A stretch of 29,886 nt of DNA from a virus: positions 1-29,886 of IMG/VR virus record IMGVR_UViG_3300025929_000040. The stretch is one strand, 5' to 3'. The notes under the pieces were generated by a model. That model did no database searches. It was not told the origin of the DNA and saw only the letters and a program-made list of their open reading frames with translations. This document shows, in pieces, positions 10,568 through 28,609 of the stretch (within the stretch, counting starts at the first letter, position 1; each line of letters starts with the position of its first letter). The position numbers and the translations under genes were made by a program.

Positions 10568-10918
10568 ATGCCTGCACAACCCCGCAAGCCCGCACAGAAG
10601 AAGCCAACTGCGGCGGTCGCCGCGCGCCGTGAGGTCCGGGGCGAAGGTGGCGCCGTGGAGCCGCTGTCGGTGAAGTTCCGCGGCGACACGTTCGACATTC
10701 CCCGCGACCGGCTCGGCTCGGCCCGCGTCTACATGCGGCAGCAGCACCTTCGCCGTTTCCGCACGGTGGAGAGCGAAGTCGAGTTGCTGTTCGAGGTACT
10801 CGGGCAGGCCGACTCGGGCCGGTTCATCGCCCTCTGCGAGCCGGGCGACTCCATCGACGGAGCGGCCACGGAGTTCTTCGCCGCGTTGAACAAGGCCAGC
10901 AACGTCCCAAACTCCTGA
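10568..10918 (+). CDS. Tail assembly chaperone, short form (gpG-like)
   Basis: A 116-residue protein with ribosome site AAGGA and ATG at 10568. The first 30 residues are basic and Ala/Pro/Lys-rich; the rest is helical (YMRQQHLRRFRTVESEVELLFEVLG, then AATEFFAALNKASN). It sits between tail tube and tape measure, the invariant place of the lambda G/GT-type chaperones that coat the tape measure before tube polymerisation. Its last codons contain a canonical slippery heptamer, so a fraction of ribosomes is expected to continue in the -1 frame and make a 250-residue fusion with the next frame. The reverse-strand lipoprotein gene lies between this pair and the tape measure gene. Confidence 0.85.
   Translation: MPAQPRKPAQKKPTAAVAARREVRGEGGAVEPLSVKFRGDTFDIPRDRLGSARVYMRQQHLRRFRTVESEVELLFEVLGQADSGRFIALCEPGDSIDGAATEFFAALNKASNVPNS
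10906..10912 (+). promoter_or_regulatory. Programmed -1 frameshift site CCCAAAC
   Basis: In the reading frame of the short chaperone the bases read C CCA AAC, exactly the X XXY YYZ pattern, two codons before the TGA at 10916-10918. Slipping back one base puts ribosomes into the open frame that runs to 11319. The direction (-1), position near the 3' end and gene context are all as in lambda G-GT. Confidence 0.88.
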
Positions 10919-11319
10919 GCCTCGTGGCGCTCGTCGTCGAGTACCACGAGGAACTAGAGATCGACCTTCTCGGCCAGGGCGTTGATCTGCTCGACTTCTG
11001 GCGCGGCACGCTCACGCCGCGCCGGCTGGATCTGCTGGTGAAACACCTACCGCCCGGGTCCGCGACGTTGCAGGCGATGGACCCCGACATTGCCCGGGTG
11101 GCGGCGTGGGGACCGACGAACGAGCAGCTCGCCGACCTGTACGACGTGACAGTCGTAGCGGGCCGGTTGACAGCCAAGGGCGGCGGCGCGCTCCCGCCGT
11201 ACCCGCGTCCCGCCGACGCGTTGCACGCGAAGCGCATGGAACAGGCCCGCTACGCGGCGCTGGAAGCGCAGCGAGAGCGGGCGCGGGCTCGCCTAGCCGC
11301 CGATATGGATCTTCGGTGA
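10912..11319 (+). CDS. Tail assembly chaperone, frameshift extension (gpT-like part)
   Basis: This is the downstream frame of the G-GT pair. After slipping at 10906-10912 translation continues LLSLVALVVEYHEELEIDLL and ends at TGA 11317-11319, adding 135 residues to give a fusion of about 250 aa. Independent initiation at the GTG 10924 would give a 131-residue protein, but no ribosome site precedes it and the frameshift is the usual mode. The segment includes DLLDFWRGTLTPRRLDLLVKH, typical of this family, where it contacts the tail tube protein, and an Arg/Ala-rich C-terminus. Its end overlaps the 3' end of the reverse-strand lipoprotein gene by 27 bases. Confidence 0.82.
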   Translation, partial: LLSLVALVVEYHEELEIDLLGQGVDLLDFWRGTLTPRRLDLLVKHLPPGSATLQAMDPDIARVAAWGPTNEQLADLYDVTVVAGRLTAKGGGALPPYPRPADALHAKRMEQARYAALEAQRERARARLAADMDLR

Positions 11320-11715
11320 CGCCATCTCGGCTTCCGGCATCTTCACGGTGCCGCGGTGCGTGACGGTGACGCCGTAGAACTTCTTTCCGGCTGGCACGGA
11401 TGCGGTGAACGTGAAATCGCAGTCGTGAGGCACTCCGGTGGTCACGGTCGGTGTCTGTCCGGCGGATAGGGCGGCGATGGTGAGCGTCTTGCCGCTGTCG
11501 TCGGAGATCACGACCTGACCGCCCTGCGTGACGTCGCTGTACCCGCCGACCCCGGCGCAGTCGTGCGTCCCGGTCAGTAGCGCGTTGAGCGTCGATTGCG
11601 GGTCGGTCAGCACCACCGTCCCCCGCACGGCGATAGGCGGTGCGGCCTTCGCCCTGCCGCTCGAGGAACAGCCGGCCAGGACAGCCACGCAAAGCAAGAT
11701 CGCCGCCATTTTCAT
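11293..11715 (-). CDS. Reverse-strand lipoprotein (moron)
   Basis: A 140-residue secreted lipoprotein encoded against the tail operon between chaperone and tape measure. It has a short signal peptide MKMAAILLCVAVLAGC with lipobox LAGC (lipidated C16), a Ser/Ala linker, and a beta-rich domain with two further cysteines (C53 in HDCAGVGGYSD and C99 in PHDCDFTF) placed to form a disulfide. The domain pattern (GTVVLTD, CAGxGGYSDV, SDDSGKTL, CDFTFTASVP, HRGTVKM) resembles small lipoproteins of actinobacteria and their phages, function unknown. The start at 11715 is the only one giving a complete signal peptide. Orientation and export suggest expression from the prophage, with superinfection exclusion or altered host surface as possible roles (inference). 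Confidence 0.85.
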   Translation of the reverse strand: MKMAAILLCVAVLAGCSSSGRAKAAPPIAVRGTVVLTDPQSTLNALLTGTHDCAGVGGYSDVTQGGQVVISDDSGKTLTIAALSAGQTPTVTTGVPHDCDFTFTASVPAGKKFYGVTVTHRGTVKMPEAEMASPKIHIGG

Positions 11716-11722
11716 GGCGCGA

Positions 11723-11751
11723 ATCGTAGACCGACACGGAAAGGAGGTCAC
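11723..11751 (-). promoter_or_regulatory. Predicted leaderless promoter of the lipoprotein gene
   Basis: On the minus strand GTGACC (11746-11751) is followed by a 17-nt spacer and TACGAT (11723-11728); seven bases later comes the ATG at 11715. Transcription would start at or next to the start codon, giving a leaderless mRNA. The -35 overlaps the AAAGGAGGTCACG ribosome site of the tape measure gene on the other strand. Confidence 0.5.
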
Positions 11752-11756
11752 GCCTG

Positions 11757-14700
11757 ATGTCAGACGGCGTGATCGGTTCCGTCGGTGTTGCGGTCGTCCC
11801 TGACGCTCGTGCGTTCTGGGAACGGTTCCGGGCTCAGACTGAGGGTGGCGCGGCTGAGGCTGGCCGTCGTGCCGGTGAGGATTGGCGGCGCGGCTTCGAT
11901 GAAGCGACTCGCGGCGCTGGCCCGTCCGGGCGCGGCGGCGCACCGTCATCTGGCGGCTCGCCTTCGTCCTCGTCGTCCTCGAATGGTGGCGGTGGTGGCC
12001 CGCTGGCTGGGCTCATCAGCGCGGCGATCACTCTCGCCCCCGCCCTCGTGCCCCTCGGCGCGGCGGCGGCGGCGGCCGGTTCGGAGTTCGCCGTCCTCGG
12101 CGCCACGGCCGCGCTCGCCGTCAAGGGCATACAGGCCGAGATGGCGTCGGGCACCCCAACTGGCGCTGCCTATTCGACGCTGCTCAAGGGGCTGAAGGCA
12201 GACCTCAGCGGCCTTGAATCGACCGCGGCTCACGGTGTTCTCGGCGGCTTTGAGCAGTCCGTCGTCAAACTGCGGGGGGATCTCCCCGAGCTGAACTCGG
12301 TCATCGCCGAGCAGTCGACTCTCCTGGGTGACACGGTTTCGCATCTGACCGGTGGGCTCATCGGTGGATTCAAGACGTTCGGTCCACTGCTGAGCCAAGT
12401 AGGCGGGTCCGTAGATCGCATCGCGGCGCACTTCGAGTCGTGGGCCACCGGGCCGGGTGGGGCGAAGTTCTCCAGCGCACTGTCGTCGGACTACGCCAAG
12501 GTCGCACCGATCATCGACGACTTGGCGCACACCATCGCCCGAGTCGTCGCGGCGTCGAACGGTGTCGGGCTCGGGATCCTGTCCGAACTCGGGGTGCTCG
12601 CCCGCGTGCTCGACACCTTCCCCACGCCGGTCCTGACAGCGATCGTCGCCGGGTTCGTCGGATTCCGCACCATCAACAGCATCAACGGCGTGCTGACCGG
12701 GCTCTCCGGAAACATGTCCCTGCTGGGCACGCGGGCCACCGCTTCCGCGGCGGCCGTGACGGCGGCGAACCTCCAAATTGAGGCCAGCGTCGCGCAGACG
12801 GCCGCCGAGGTTGCCACTGCCCAAGCGGCCGAAGCGGCGGCAGTAGCACAGGCGCAGGCCGAGATCGCGGAGGCTCTCGCCGGTACCGGATCGGTACTGG
12901 AAAGCGGGGCGGCCATTGCCGCACAGACGGCAGCCGAAGAGGCAACGTCGTTCCAGGTAGCTGCCGAAGCGGCCATCGCCGCTGCCGCGGAAATCTCGGC
13001 AGCGGCAGACGCTGCCGCCGTCGAATCTGCTACAGCCGGCGCCGCGGCCTCTGCTAGTTGGTCCGCGATGCTAGGCCCCGTCGGCATCGGAGTGGGGCTG
13101 CTAGCCATATTCGGCCTCTCCATGCTGACCACGTCGGACGACACGAACAAGGCGGCGGGGTCGCTACAGACCTTCACGTCCGCGCTGGAGCAGTCGCAGG
13201 GCGTCATCAACGACACGGTCCGCGCGAACCTCGCGAACACGCTGACCAAGGCGATCAACCCGGACGAACTCAAGAAAACCGGCCTGACGATCAAGGATCT
13301 CACGGACGACATTCTCGGCGTGCCGGCGGCGGTGGCGAAGTACAACAACATCCCGCTCGGGAAGTTCAGCAACGGGCTCATCACCGACATACACAACGTT
13401 CGCAAGGCGTTCGCTGATGCGCAGACGGCGGCAGAGACGGAAGCCCAGGCGCTGACCGGCGTCGGCGCGGCCACCGCCGCGACCTCAGTGCAACTCAGCG
13501 AAGGCAACACGGCGATCCGCGGCTACGTCGCAGCGATGGACACGTTCAACAAGTCCACCGACACCGCGGCCGACCGGGGGAAGTTGATCGGGTCGGTTCT
13601 GGTCGCCGCGAACGGTGACGCGCTGTCTTACGTGGCGTCGATGACCGCTGCCGCCGGTGCCGGGCGCGCCCTGTCGGACGCGTTCACGTCCGATCGGCAG
13701 AAGATCCAGGATCTTCGGCAGCAGATCGCGCAACTGACCGGGCAGCACGGCTCGGCCGCGACATCTTCGGGTGTGTTGGCGGCGCAGATCAACAAGACCG
13801 GTGCCGCTATCGCAGCGAACAAGACACGGGTCGAGCAGTTGCAGAATTCGATCGACACGGGGACGTTGTCGTCGAAGCAGCTTGCGTCGGCGCAGTCCGC
13901 GTTGGCGAACGCGGAAGCGTCGGGCGGGGTCAAGACCGCGACCCTGGCCGCGCAGCGCGCGAAGCTCAACTCGGCTCTCGGCGGCGGGACGGTGAATGTC
14001 GCGCAGTTGACGAAGCTCCAGCAGGAGTTGGCGAAGGCTTACGAGGACAGCGAACTCGCCGCGATCAATCTCAATAAGGGAACGATCGACTACACCAAGG
14101 GTGGCGCACCTGCCCTGGTGGGGCAGTTGCAGGCGATCCAGACCGCCTCGGAGAACGCCGCCGCAGCCGTCTACCAGCACGAACTCAGCCAAAAGGGCGG
14201 GACGAAGGCCGCCGACGACGCGTTCAACGTCTACAAGAACGAGACGCGAGGCGCGCTGATAGACCAGGCGAAGCAGCTCGGGCTCACCGTCCCGCAGGCG
14301 AAGAAGCTTGCTGACCAGTACTTCGGGCTCAAGAACTCCGGCGACATCAAGAAGAAGATCGAACTGATTGGTGAGGACAAGGTCGTCGATGCCTTGAAGG
14401 GCATCCTCCAGGATCTCGACATTCTCATCGGTAAGACGACTGTGCTCGACTTGGCGATTGCGAAGGCGAACGCGAACGCGCCGAAGAACCTTGGCAGCCC
14501 TGGTGCGGTGTTGCACCAGTCGGCTGGTGGATTCATCTCCGGGCCGGGGAGCGGGACGTCGGATTCGATCCCGGCTCGCCTGTCCAACGGCGAGTTCGTC
14601 GTCAACGCCGCCGCGACCGCGCGGAACCGGCCGGCGCTCGAGGCGATGAACGGCGGCGTCCAGGCTTTCCGTGACGGCGGTATCGCCACCGTCGTGCCGT

Positions 14701-14810
14701 CCCGGTCGATCTCGCAGACGAACAACTACTACTACCCGGTGCCGGAGCGGGTCACGTCCAGCCCAACAGCGCACCGCGCGGCAGCGTCGAAACTCGGCAG
14801 GCTCGGATGA
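11757..14810 (+). CDS. Tape measure protein
   Basis: The longest gene of the window, 1017 residues, with a strong ribosome site (AAAGGAGG) before ATG 11757. It shows the usual build: helical N-terminus, a Ser/Gly linker at about 60-82, hydrophobic segments (about 83-125, 285-305 and 438-459, the last reading LGPVGIGVGLLAIFGLSML), a very Ala-rich helical region at about 340-435, long coiled-coil stretches, and a C-terminal GGFISGPGSGTSDSIPARLS / NGEFVVNAAATARNRP motif found in many tape measures of actinophages. The protein sets tail length; by the rule of about 0.15 nm per residue the tail would be roughly 150 nm. No peptidase or lysozyme domain is visible. Confidence 0.93.
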   Translation: MSDGVIGSVGVAVVPDARAFWERFRAQTEGGAAEAGRRAGEDWRRGFDEATRGAGPSGRGGAPSSGGSPSSSSSSNGGGGGPLAGLISAAITLAPALVPLGAAAAAAGSEFAVLGATAALAVKGIQAEMASGTPTGAAYSTLLKGLKADLSGLESTAAHGVLGGFEQSVVKLRGDLPELNSVIAEQSTLLGDTVSHLTGGLIGGFKTFGPLLSQVGGSVDRIAAHFESWATGPGGAKFSSALSSDYAKVAPIIDDLAHTIARVVAASNGVGLGILSELGVLARVLDTFPTPVLTAIVAGFVGFRTINSINGVLTGLSGNMSLLGTRATASAAAVTAANLQIEASVAQTAAEVATAQAAEAAAVAQAQAEIAEALAGTGSVLESGAAIAAQTAAEEATSFQVAAEAAIAAAAEISAAADAAAVESATAGAAASASWSAMLGPVGIGVGLLAIFGLSMLTTSDDTNKAAGSLQTFTSALEQSQGVINDTVRANLANTLTKAINPDELKKTGLTIKDLTDDILGVPAAVAKYNNIPLGKFSNGLITDIHNVRKAFADAQTAAETEAQALTGVGAATAATSVQLSEGNTAIRGYVAAMDTFNKSTDTAADRGKLIGSVLVAANGDALSYVASMTAAAGAGRALSDAFTSDRQKIQDLRQQIAQLTGQHGSAATSSGVLAAQINKTGAAIAANKTRVEQLQNSIDTGTLSSKQLASAQSALANAEASGGVKTATLAAQRAKLNSALGGGTVNVAQLTKLQQELAKAYEDSELAAINLNKGTIDYTKGGAPALVGQLQAIQTASENAAAAVYQHELSQKGGTKAADDAFNVYKNETRGALIDQAKQLGLTVPQAKKLADQYFGLKNSGDIKKKIELIGEDKVVDALKGILQDLDILIGKTTVLDLAIAKANANAPKNLGSPGAVLHQSAGGFISGPGSGTSDSIPARLSNGEFVVNAAATARNRPALEAMNGGVQAFRDGGIATVVPSRSISQTNNYYYPVPERVTSSPTAHRAAASKLGRLG

Positions 14811-24016: not shown

Positions 24017-24050
24017 AACTAGCCCAGCGCCCTGTCCCACACGGCTAGTT
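24017..24050. terminator. Possible bidirectional terminator between convergent genes
   Basis: AACTAGCC (24017-24024) and GGCTAGTT (24043-24050) form an 8-bp inverted repeat with an 18-nt loop. It overlaps the stop codon of the reverse-strand methyltransferase and follows the late-operon stop by 8 bases, where transcription from both sides should end. The long loop makes it only a moderate candidate. Confidence 0.4.
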
Positions 24051-24729
24051 CAGTTCCGCGGAGATGAATCGGCTTCGCATCCCCGGCGGCTGACGCTTCG
24101 TCGACCGCCCGCACCACGTCAGGCCAGAGCGGCGTGTAGTCGTCCCACACGACTACGCCGCGTTCACTCACCAGGGCAACCGCCGATCGAGTGTCCGCAC
24201 TTACGTAGTCGTAGCCGTGCCCGGCGTCCACGATCACCAGATCGCAACTGCCAGCCCACGGCGAGACGTCCAACTCTCGACTGTCGCCGTACACCTGGGT
24301 GATCCGCTCCTGCTCCGACGTGCCATGGAAGCGGCAACCGGACCGCAGCCCCGCGCCCCTGGTGTTGATCTCGGCAATGTCGTCCAGCAGGTCGACGGTG
24401 ACGATCTCGACCTCCGGCAGTAGCCGGGCCAGCCGCAGCGTGGTCGACCCGTCGAACGTGCCGAACTCGAAGATCCGCCGTGGCCGACGCAGCAAGCAGA
24501 GCAACGACAGGCAGTACAACTCGTTCGGGTCCATGTTCGACGGGTCGAACCTGACATCCCCCATCGGCACCGTGAAGCTGGCGACCTCCGGGTACTGCTG
24601 CCACACGTACCGGCTCGGCACCAACCGAGCCCGTTCCGCAGCCAAACCCGCCGCCGCCATCGTCCGCCACATCGACCGGTCCCCGGCGTGTTTCGCCAGC
24701 GCCGTGATCGCCTGCCTTGCTGTCGACAC
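24019..24729 (-). CDS. Class I SAM-dependent methyltransferase (moron)
   Basis: A 236-residue protein of the Methyltransf_24 type. SAM-binding motif I is IFEFGTFDGST (86-96), motif II acidic residue D113 in TVDLLDD, then SCDLVIVDAGHGYDYV (161-176) with the D-x-GH pattern of metal-assisted small-molecule/sugar O-methyltransferases, and GVVVWDDYTP (191-200). The N-terminal about 80 residues are helical. No DNA target-recognition domain or (D/N)PPY motif is present, so it is unlikely to be a DNA methylase; a sugar, lipid or other surface metabolite is the more probable substrate (inference). GTG start at 24729 has a poor ribosome site; TAACAT upstream could be a -10. Convergent with the fibre genes. 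Confidence 0.85.
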   Translation of the reverse strand: MSTARQAITALAKHAGDRSMWRTMAAAGLAAERARLVPSRYVWQQYPEVASFTVPMGDVRFDPSNMDPNELYCLSLLCLLRRPRRIFEFGTFDGSTTLRLARLLPEVEIVTVDLLDDIAEINTRGAGLRSGCRFHGTSEQERITQVYGDSRELDVSPWAGSCDLVIVDAGHGYDYVSADTRSAVALVSERGVVVWDDYTPLWPDVVRAVDEASAAGDAKPIHLRGTELAVWDRALG

Positions 24730-24905: not shown

Positions 24906-26108
24906 CTAACGGTCGAGAATCCGTTCGGGCTCGAGCGAAGCGGCCGGAGCGCTCATCCCGTCGAGAGCTGCCACCACCTTGTCGTCGCTGTCGGAGAACA
25001 GGTGCCCGTAGCGGTCGTAGGTCGTCTGGATCGACTCGTGGCCCATGCGGCTCTGTACGACCTTGGCGTCTAGGCCGGCGCTGATGAGCCACGATGCCTG
25101 AGCGTGCCGCATATCGTGGATTCTGGGCCGTTTGGCGAGCGTCCCGGGGCATCCACACAGATCCGGGCCGGGGTGCTGCTCGCAGCGGTTTAGCCTCTCG
25201 ATCGTGGGGCGCCAGTGGCTCTTGTAGAACGCCGAGTGCTGCACCACCCGTCCGGTCGCCGTCGTGAACAGCCAGTCCGACGCGGACCGGGAGGCGACAA
25301 GCGGGATCAGCGCCTCGACCGTCGCGCCGTCGAGCGCGAGCGTGCGCCTCGATCGGCGGGACTTCGGCTCACCGATGTAGTAGGTGCTGCCCTCGTCGCG
25401 CTTCCACGCCTTCGTCACCGCCACCGTCTTGCGCTGGCCGAACAGGTCAACGTCCCCCACCTTGAGCGCGGTCGCCTCCGACCATCTCAGCCCCGTGTGG
25501 GCCAGCAGGATCACCAGCGGCCGGTATGCCTCGGCTAGCGCGGCGGCGATGCGGTCGACCTCGAGCTTGGTCAGCGGCACGATCTCTTCCGTCCGCACTG
25601 CCGGGAGTGACCGCATGGCCTTGGCGAACGGGTTCGGTCCCGGCGCCTTGCCTGACTGCATCGCGTCCTCGTAGACGGAGCTGGCGAGCGCGTGAATGTT
25701 CTTCACCGTCTTGGCCGCGAGCGCCCGCGTGCCGGGCTTGGGCTCGGTCAGCAGGATCAGCCACCGTCCGACCGTCATCGCGTCGATGCGGTCCAGGTGT
25801 AGGTCCCCGAACACCGGGTAGATGTGGTTGGTCAGGTCGCGCCGGTAGTCAGCACGGGTTCGGCGGTTCGCCTTCGAGCGGGCGTCGATCGCCCTCTCGG
25901 CCCACTGGTGGAAGGTGGGGCACATCGACTCCGCCTCACCGTAGCCGTGGCCCTTCACCCAGCCGTGGGGCCAGCGGTTCTCGCCGCCCATGTAGCCGAG
26001 GAACAGGAGCGCCTCGGCCTCGGTGGCGAACCGCTCGTACTGCTTCTCGCCGGCCTCTCGCCAGACGACGCGCCAGCCTGACGCCCCGCGGTTCTCGACG
26101 CTCGCCAT
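24906..26108 (-). CDS. int: Tyrosine integrase
   Basis: A 400-residue site-specific recombinase. The N-terminal about 60 residues form an arm-binding domain (ENRGASGWRVVWREAGEKQY), residues about 65-155 the SAM-like core-binding domain, and 175-385 the catalytic domain with R208 (HTGLRWSEA), K249 (EPKSRRSRR), H331-x2-R334 (IHDMRHA), H357 (MGHESIQTT) and nucleophile Y367 (YDRYGHLF). All catalytic residues are present. A Cys-rich insertion (C309, H312, C318, C320 in CEQHPGPDLCGCPG) precedes the HxxR box. It integrates the phage at a tRNA gene, recombining the attP that lies just upstream of its start. The ATG at 26108 lies six bases after TAGAAT, suggesting a leaderless transcript. Confidence 0.95.
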   Translation of the reverse strand: MASVENRGASGWRVVWREAGEKQYERFATEAEALLFLGYMGGENRWPHGWVKGHGYGEAESMCPTFHQWAERAIDARSKANRRTRADYRRDLTNHIYPVFGDLHLDRIDAMTVGRWLILLTEPKPGTRALAAKTVKNIHALASSVYEDAMQSGKAPGPNPFAKAMRSLPAVRTEEIVPLTKLEVDRIAAALAEAYRPLVILLAHTGLRWSEATALKVGDVDLFGQRKTVAVTKAWKRDEGSTYYIGEPKSRRSRRTLALDGATVEALIPLVASRSASDWLFTTATGRVVQHSAFYKSHWRPTIERLNRCEQHPGPDLCGCPGTLAKRPRIHDMRHAQASWLISAGLDAKVVQSRMGHESIQTTYDRYGHLFSDSDDKVVAALDGMSAPAASLEPERILDR

Positions 26109-27885: not shown

Positions 27886-28103
27886 CCCGCCACGACGCAG
27901 CAGCGGTCGCCAAGGCGATCGGCAAGACACCGAACTGGGTTCGGCGGAACGCACACCGCTTGCCGCACTCCCGCGCCGGCCAGACGTACTTCTGGACCGA
28001 TGACGACCTGCGGGATCTGCTGGAGTTCTTGAAGGTCCGCCCGGTGGCTGCGGCTCCGTCGCGTGGGCCGCAGCCGATCACCGGCACCCGGCGCGCTTCG
28101 TGA
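27882..28103 (+). CDS. Small helix-turn-helix protein (excisionase/MerR-like)
   Basis: A 73-residue protein, GTG start overlapping the Cro-like stop. Residues 5-52 read as a small winged-helix DNA-binding domain of the excisionase/MerR type: DAAAVAKAIGKTPNWVRRNA, then a wing RAGQTYFWTDDDLRDLLEFL. A flexible Pro/Ala/Arg-rich tail follows. Such proteins in the early operon often act as excisionase (recombination directionality factor) or as transcription regulators. It competes with the ribbon-helix-helix gene near attP as the excisionase candidate; early-operon expression makes it the better one. The stop overlaps the next GTG. Confidence 0.72.
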   Translation: MTRHDAAAVAKAIGKTPNWVRRNAHRLPHSRAGQTYFWTDDDLRDLLEFLKVRPVAAAPSRGPQPITGTRRAS

Positions 28104-28609
28104 CCGCCGACAAGACGCTGATCTTCGCGCTGAACCGCCTGCTGCGTCGCTGCGTCCCCGCCGAGGGCGGCTGCATCGTCTGGGAAGGCTGCGTCAACTC
28201 GCGCGGCTACGGCGTCATCAGCCTCGACGGCGCCCGTGTCCTCACTCACCGGCTGTCCTACGAGGCGCACATCGGGCCGATCCCCGACGGGTTGCAGATC
28301 GACCACCTGTGCCGGAACAAGCGCTGCGTGAACCCGGCCCACCTCGAGCCCGTCACCGGCCTTGAGAACCAACGTCGGGCGGCTGCGTCCAAGACGCACT
28401 GCCCGCGCAACCACCCGCTGGCCGGGTCGAACCTGATCCTCAAGAAGCGGCCCAACGGCTCGTTCATCCGTAACTGCCGGACGTGCAACAACGCGCAGCA
28501 GCGGGCGCGGGCGTTCTTCCGCAACAACCTCGACCGGCCCGCTACCCGGGCCGAGGTCGCCGAGTGGATCGACTCGGAGTTCGCGTCTGCTCGTGGTGGT
28601 GTCGCATGA
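28100..28609 (+). CDS. HNH endonuclease (early region)
   Basis: A 169-residue protein, GTG start at 28100 overlapping the preceding stop. It has an HNH_3-type nuclease core: LQIDHLCRNKRCVNPAHLEP with D68-H69, C71, C76, N78 and H81, preceded by a GYGVISLDGARVLTHRLSYE strand/helix unit. After it comes a zinc-ribbon-like part with C101/H105 and C126/C129, then a helical tail. This is the usual form of small phage HNH proteins that behave as free-standing homing endonucleases or as DNA-processing nucleases. It is unrelated in detail to the HNH protein at the left end. It is tightly coupled within the early operon (ATGA overlap with the next gene), so it is probably a resident rather than a recent insertion. 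Confidence 0.85.
   Translation: MTADKTLIFALNRLLRRCVPAEGGCIVWEGCVNSRGYGVISLDGARVLTHRLSYEAHIGPIPDGLQIDHLCRNKRCVNPAHLEPVTGLENQRRAAASKTHCPRNHPLAGSNLILKKRPNGSFIRNCRTCNNAQQRARAFFRNNLDRPATRAEVAEWIDSEFASARGGVA

Follow-up and report, generated by a model that had tools for sequence, protein, structure and literature searches.

A gene for an exported protein lies, against the direction of the tail operon, between the tail assembly chaperone and tape measure protein (TMP) genes of a phage. The window, as the DNA analysed is called here, comes from IMG/VR and is a virus record 29,886 bases long; it contains the left arm of a siphophage (terminase, portal, protease, capsid, connectors and tail) and also encodes an endolysin. 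A tyrosine integrase gene is present, so the phage, a soil actinobacterial one, is probably temperate. The features on which the analysis bears are the following.

10568-10918, plus strand: tail assembly chaperone G-like ORF, 116 aa
10906-10912: -1 slippery site CCCAAAC, of standard type
10924-11319, plus strand: tail assembly chaperone T part (PHROG tail assembly chaperone, E 7.4e-19)
11293-11715, minus strand: lipoprotein gene, 140 aa, ATG at 11715; signal peptide, lipobox LAGC and extracytoplasmic beta domain
11728-11723, minus strand: predicted -10, TACGAT, 7 nt from the ATG
11740-11747, plus strand: TMP Shine-Dalgarno sequence AAAGGAGG
11751-11746, minus strand: predicted -35, GTGACC, with a spacer of 17 to the -10
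11757-14810, plus strand: TMP, 1017 aa (PHROG tail length tape measure, E 7.6e-17)
24906-26108, minus strand: tyrosine integrase (PF00589, E 6.6e-20)

Two other genes of the window may be mentioned. A SAM-dependent methyltransferase gene (PF13578, Methyltransf_24; 24019-24729, minus strand) adjoins the integrase gene and is another possible conversion gene, and an HNH endonuclease-like ORF (28100-28609; PF13392, E 1.9e-15) lies in the right arm.

A lipoprotein gene on the minus strand

The G-like ORF was assigned by its position and by the slippery site, which leads into the T part; a PHROG search with this ORF gave no match under 0.01. On the plus strand the chaperone and TMP genes are separated by 437 nt, a gap occupied by a minus-strand ORF whose 3' end overlaps that of the T part convergently by 27 bp. 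GC content by codon position in this ORF is 0.60/0.54/0.85, and its codon score (+0.26) is like that of the real genes of the window, while the other five frames score from -1.13 to +0.07.

By inspection, the N-terminus of the product, MKMAAILLCVAVLAGC followed by SSSG, contains a type II signal peptide and a lipobox: the signal region includes LLCVAVLAGC, and the predicted lipidated residue is Cys16. The mature protein is charge-balanced, with 9 acidic and 9 basic residues. Cys53 and Cys99 (C38 and C84 of the mature protein) are invariant across 50 aligned sequences, and a family profile built without the window protein matches it with an E value of 5.9e-25 (nominal search of 1,000,000 sequences).

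At 67% GC long reverse ORFs are common, and the ORF might have been a chance one in a high-GC gap, with no gene at all. The codon statistics, the lipobox and the homology (E 5.9e-25) refute this reading in silico and leave it next to no probability. The results above bear out the initial annotation in proposing a lipoprotein with lipobox LAGC and a conserved cysteine pair, encoded against the tail operon. Its extent had been given as 11293-11751; the gene is indeed there, but the start codon is at 11715, and position 11751 corresponds to the 5' boundary of the predicted -35.

A predicted promoter with a leaderless start

No Shine-Dalgarno sequence was found upstream of the lipoprotein ATG. The gene is predicted to have its own promoter, with the layout GTGACC-17-TACGAT-7-ATG. 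Where only 6-7 nt separate the end of the -10 sequence from the start codon, the mRNA is expected to be leaderless, here starting at 11715; such an arrangement is common in actinobacteria. When the 60 nt were shuffled by mononucleotide, 0.1% of the shuffles scored as well as the predicted promoter; a generic sigma-70 scan requiring 9 of 12 matches did not list it, because its score is 8/12. The -35 covers the final two bases of the TMP Shine-Dalgarno sequence, AAAGGAGG, so that the overlap originally noted between the predicted -35 and the TMP ribosome site is correct.

Of the 12 genes or cassettes adjacent to TMP, 10 have the element TANNNT at a distance of 6-7 nt from an in-frame start; the element is so placed in 2 of the 41 homologues from hosts or plasmids and at 0.28% of the start-like triplets in the window. 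The spacing seen in the window recurs in the phage loci L016, L060, L064 and L065 and, as annotated, in five of the six cassette types of the Gordonia CY phages described below; in the sixth, Wrigley, the spacing fits from an internal ATG, which also improves the signal peptide. It is absent from L058. The sequence upstream of the gene, around CGGTGATC, is common to L016, L060, L064 and L065. The gene of L065 lies on the opposite side of the TMP gene yet has the same upstream sequence, which suggests that the gene moves along with its promoter.

A 7-bp exact inverted repeat, TCACGCC-11-GGCGTGA (11748-11772), covers the TMP start codon and touches the lipoprotein -35. It may be an operator or a hairpin; a single exact copy occurs in the window, with degenerate matches at chance level.

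The lipoprotein belongs to an accessory domain family of actinobacteria

Used alone as a query, the window protein found no relatives in the phages collection, the viral contigs or the genome contigs. The first relatives were Streptomyces plasmid proteins, 32% identical over 94% of the length, and alignment-based searches then gave 23 genome loci and, in three scans that overlap one another, 22, 19 and 10 viral loci. We define the family as an actinobacterial exported domain, 'GGYxD...FYxVEVSHRG', recognized by an anchor (a lipobox or a single N-terminal transmembrane segment), two invariant cysteines and a profile match, all of which the window protein has. The domain carries the motif FYxVxVxHRG along with the two cysteines, and no Pfam, NCBIfam or PHROG model matches the family. 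Matches to Spanin (PF17531), DUF4360 and NCBIfam models were weak, below the cut-off and mostly of signal-peptide type, and sequence matches in the PDB (RNF4, a capsid protein; E 0.003-1) were not credible; these were discarded.

Members are scattered across actinobacterial chromosomes, plasmids and phages, with a homologue in one cyanobacterium. By our reading of the table, about nine of 396 Actinomycetota genomes have matches covering the domain, and the family is an accessory gene. Its presence on Streptomyces plasmids and in chromosomes suggests that its basic role may be wider. In three chromosomal versions (L070, L071 and L073) the domain is preceded by a segment of DUF732-like appearance, DUF732 being also found in the Wrigley protein described below. 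A type I-E cas3 gene lies roughly 1 kb away from the Streptomyces plasmid homologue L004, and the homologue L009 is near a Pycsar effector gene; both neighbourhoods are possibly defence-rich.

Recurrent position beside the tape measure gene

Seven phages have a family member antisense to the TMP gene and adjoining it. The member lies between chaperone and TMP in the window, L016, L060, L064 and Posh, a cultured Gordonia phage in which it is gp17, and just downstream of TMP in L058 and L065. Chaperones of L016, L060 and L064 were identified by position, in L016 also by an apparent frameshifted second ORF, and a PHROG search at this position in the three phages gave no useful match; the TMP assignments are PHROG-supported, weakly so for the L060 fragment. 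Three TMP types are mutually dissimilar: by BLASTP the TMPs of the window and of Posh show similarity neither to one another nor to the remaining TMPs.

On the family tree the seven TMP-adjacent members are scattered: six label changes are needed, at least three of them forced by well-supported branches. If an even spread over about 50 junctions is assumed, finding 7 of 21 members at the two TMP junctions has a p value of about 1e-5; counting just three TMP lineages, with about 50 junctions again assumed, p is about 0.03. Other members (L014, L018, L022 and L027) map either close to the integrase or to the end of the tail module.

The gene is absent from several related phages, in which the chaperone/TMP junction measures from -8 to 14 nt. 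It is 13 nt in L003, a case of mosaicism (major capsid protein 88% identical to that of the window, tail genes different), 9-14 nt in Dmitri and Nyceirae, and an overlap of 8 nt in L002 (major tail protein 47%). Judged by these sequences, the lipoprotein gene is extra relative to related phages, as a moron is. The place had been described as one normally occupied only by the G-GT/TMP junction, which does not hold for all phages: the slot is a recurrent site for cargo.

Cassette exchange in Gordonia CY phages

In every Gordonia CY phage found, gp16 (chaperone, annotated as joined) is separated from gp18 (TMP) by a gene 17 on the minus strand. Among the ten compared, DNA identity is 87-98% for the chaperones and 80-99% over the first 2400 nt of TMP, while the gp17 proteins fall into six types whose mutual identity, 14-23%, is background. 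Five types have lipoprotein signals: among them, Posh gp17 contains the domain of the window family (E 3.4e-9), Wrigley gp17 contains DUF732 and LonelyBoi gp17 has a sub-threshold DUF4352 match. The remaining type, that of Angelique and Lilas, is predicted to be a zinc-ribbon protein with two TM segments and is no lipoprotein.

Posh gp17, annotated merely as a hypothetical protein or lipoprotein, resembles the window gene in domain family, lipobox, antisense orientation, junction and promoter spacing; it differs in that its sequence similarity to the window protein is weak and its siblings have unrelated genes in the slot. A comparable exchange is seen between L060 and L064, whose exported proteins are 57% identical, against 98% for the TMP start and 100% for the major tail proteins. 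At 74% identity their chaperones differ as well, so the chaperone may be part of the segment that was exchanged.

Co-variation between cassette and TMP type was tested in the CY phages and none was found. In the variable region the TMPs of Posh and Wrigley are identical, yet the gp17 proteins of the two phages are unrelated; LonelyBoi and Jablanski, with a shared gp17, differ in that part of TMP. This uncoupling excludes a required pairing with the phage's own TMP and leaves TMP as a target not directly supported; it says nothing about targets in other phages. The TMPs of closely related CY phages, as in LonelyBoi and Jablanski (L106 and L107), have hypervariable regions at about alignment columns 500-1300, with identity down to 24%, independently of the type of gene 17.

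Predicted structure and comparison with known exclusion proteins

The AlphaFold model of the lipoprotein (pLDDT 87) is an all-beta protein, a beta sandwich. Its only strong structural match is a lipoprotein of Gordonia phage Nyceirae (BFVD A0A1C9EI20; TM 0.71, Foldseek E 1.3e-6), which we assigned to gp39 by length and HMM match. Nyceirae gp39 is likewise a lipoprotein that matches the family profile, with TAAGAT 6 nt before its ATG, but its gene is in the lysogeny region, near the repressor and integrase and away from TMP. Comparison with the PDB gave generic beta-sandwich matches alone (best Foldseek E 0.03; best VIA-align Z 6.8, none reaching 8), and the likeness to CnaB, transthyretin and CBM-like sandwiches was at background level. 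The PDB matches being generic, no function is claimed from the fold.

A proven exclusion protein encoded at the same junction is the moron product gp15 of Escherichia phage HK97, which is located in the membrane and blocks DNA injection, a block bypassed by the tail tube and TMP genes of HK022 (PMC10883804). The gp15 gene also lies between a frameshifted tail chaperone and the TMP gene, though on the other strand than the window gene: gp15 is a predicted inner-membrane protein of 62 aa encoded in the direction of the tail genes, whereas the window protein is an actinophage lipoprotein of 140 aa encoded antisense to them.

The window protein is also comparable to Ltp (PF07553) of Streptococcus phage TP-J34, a surface lipoprotein that excludes at DNA entry and has TMP as its target (PMC3952083). 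Both are phage lipoproteins, the window protein being a predicted surface one; however, Ltp consists of helical repeats and the window protein is predicted to be all-beta, and Ltp has a described acidic TMP-binding surface whereas the mature window protein is charge-balanced. Nor is the ltp gene between the chaperone orfs and tmp, since in TP-J34 tmp directly follows those orfs. No match to PF07553 was obtained in the window protein at E 1, and it is not a member of the Ltp family. GTE6 orf12, assigned to PF07553 (PMC4524720), was rejected as a parallel, since in the stretch examined it does not resemble a chaperone/TMP slot gene. In Cutibacterium phage Aquarius, gp41 has been proposed as a surface protein for superinfection resistance (PMC11480721); this protein, which predictions class as cystatin- or VirB8-like, has no demonstrated relation to the window protein.

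Proposed function and alternative explanations

The in silico evidence covers coding, the lipoprotein signal, the family, insertion relative to related phages, promoter-like signals and cassette exchange. From position, anchoring, promoter and cassette exchange we infer superinfection exclusion as the best-supported function, and our preferred reading, which we judge to have an even chance of being right, is that of a surface moron expressed from the prophage and excluding at DNA entry. In the lysogen, RNA polymerase would start at the promoter that the gene carries and make a leaderless mRNA, and the protein would be exported, lipidated on Cys16 and anchored to the outer face of the cytoplasmic membrane, its beta domain closed by a disulphide. 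There it would block genome entry by other siphophages, the most plausible blocked step being the crossing of the envelope by TMP. Antisense transcription across the chaperone end would be a side effect, possibly helping to silence the tail genes.

The protein might, alternatively, serve lysogenic conversion without exclusion, changing the surface for adhesion, ligand binding or stress, the junction being a tolerant place for cargo. Homologues on Streptomyces plasmids, in chromosomes and in one cyanobacterium are compatible with such a role, as are slot cassettes whose folds are not tied to phages (DUF732 and the weak DUF4352-like match), the lack of coupling to TMP type and a beta domain that resembles CnaB, transthyretin and CBM-like sandwiches at background level alone. 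The fast swapping among near-identical phages and the repeated arrival by TMP nevertheless suggest conflict more than housekeeping, and a known exclusion protein, HK97 gp15, is found at the same junction; we regard conversion alone as possible but rather unlikely.

Two other explanations concern the tail operon itself. It is improbable that the gene serves chiefly in cis, its promoter within the TMP leader and a transcript that runs on into the 3' part of the chaperone gene silencing the tail genes in the lysogen, with the protein secondary: the -35 does overlap the TMP Shine-Dalgarno sequence, there is a 27-bp overlap with the chaperone gene and the inverted repeat at 11748-11772 spans the TMP start, but the protein domain and signal peptides are kept throughout the family, many members are located elsewhere, L058 and L065 lose this geometry by lying downstream of TMP, and the BeeGee and L060 genes do not overlap the chaperone. 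Even less probable is a virion or tail-assembly role, as a membrane partner of chaperone or TMP made late in infection. Such a role would suit a gene within the tail operon; against it stand the antisense orientation to the late operon, the predicted promoter, the absence of the gene from relatives and the substitution of unrelated proteins beside near-identical TMPs.

Implications

Exclusion-type lipoprotein morons are already known as a kind of gene; the domain family, the antisense slot beside TMP and the cassette behaviour were not found described in a search of open-licence papers. The slot phenomenon is more general than the window sequence alone could reveal. We tentatively propose, at somewhat less than even odds, that the chaperone/TMP junction of temperate actinophages is a dedicated slot for swappable antisense genes with leaderless promoters, encoding membrane-anchored surface proteins that exclude competing phages at DNA entry. 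In this reading the slot would be the Gram-positive equivalent of the place that gp15 has in HK97, and the beta-domain family would be one among several occupants able to replace each other.

Little is known about the surface exclusion proteins of actinophages, and the slot would provide a genomic address from which candidates can be read off directly. The cultured Gordonia phages with like flanking tail genes and different gene 17 are natural allele-swap sets. If the proposal is true, exclusion genes beside TMP arose in phages of very different hosts.
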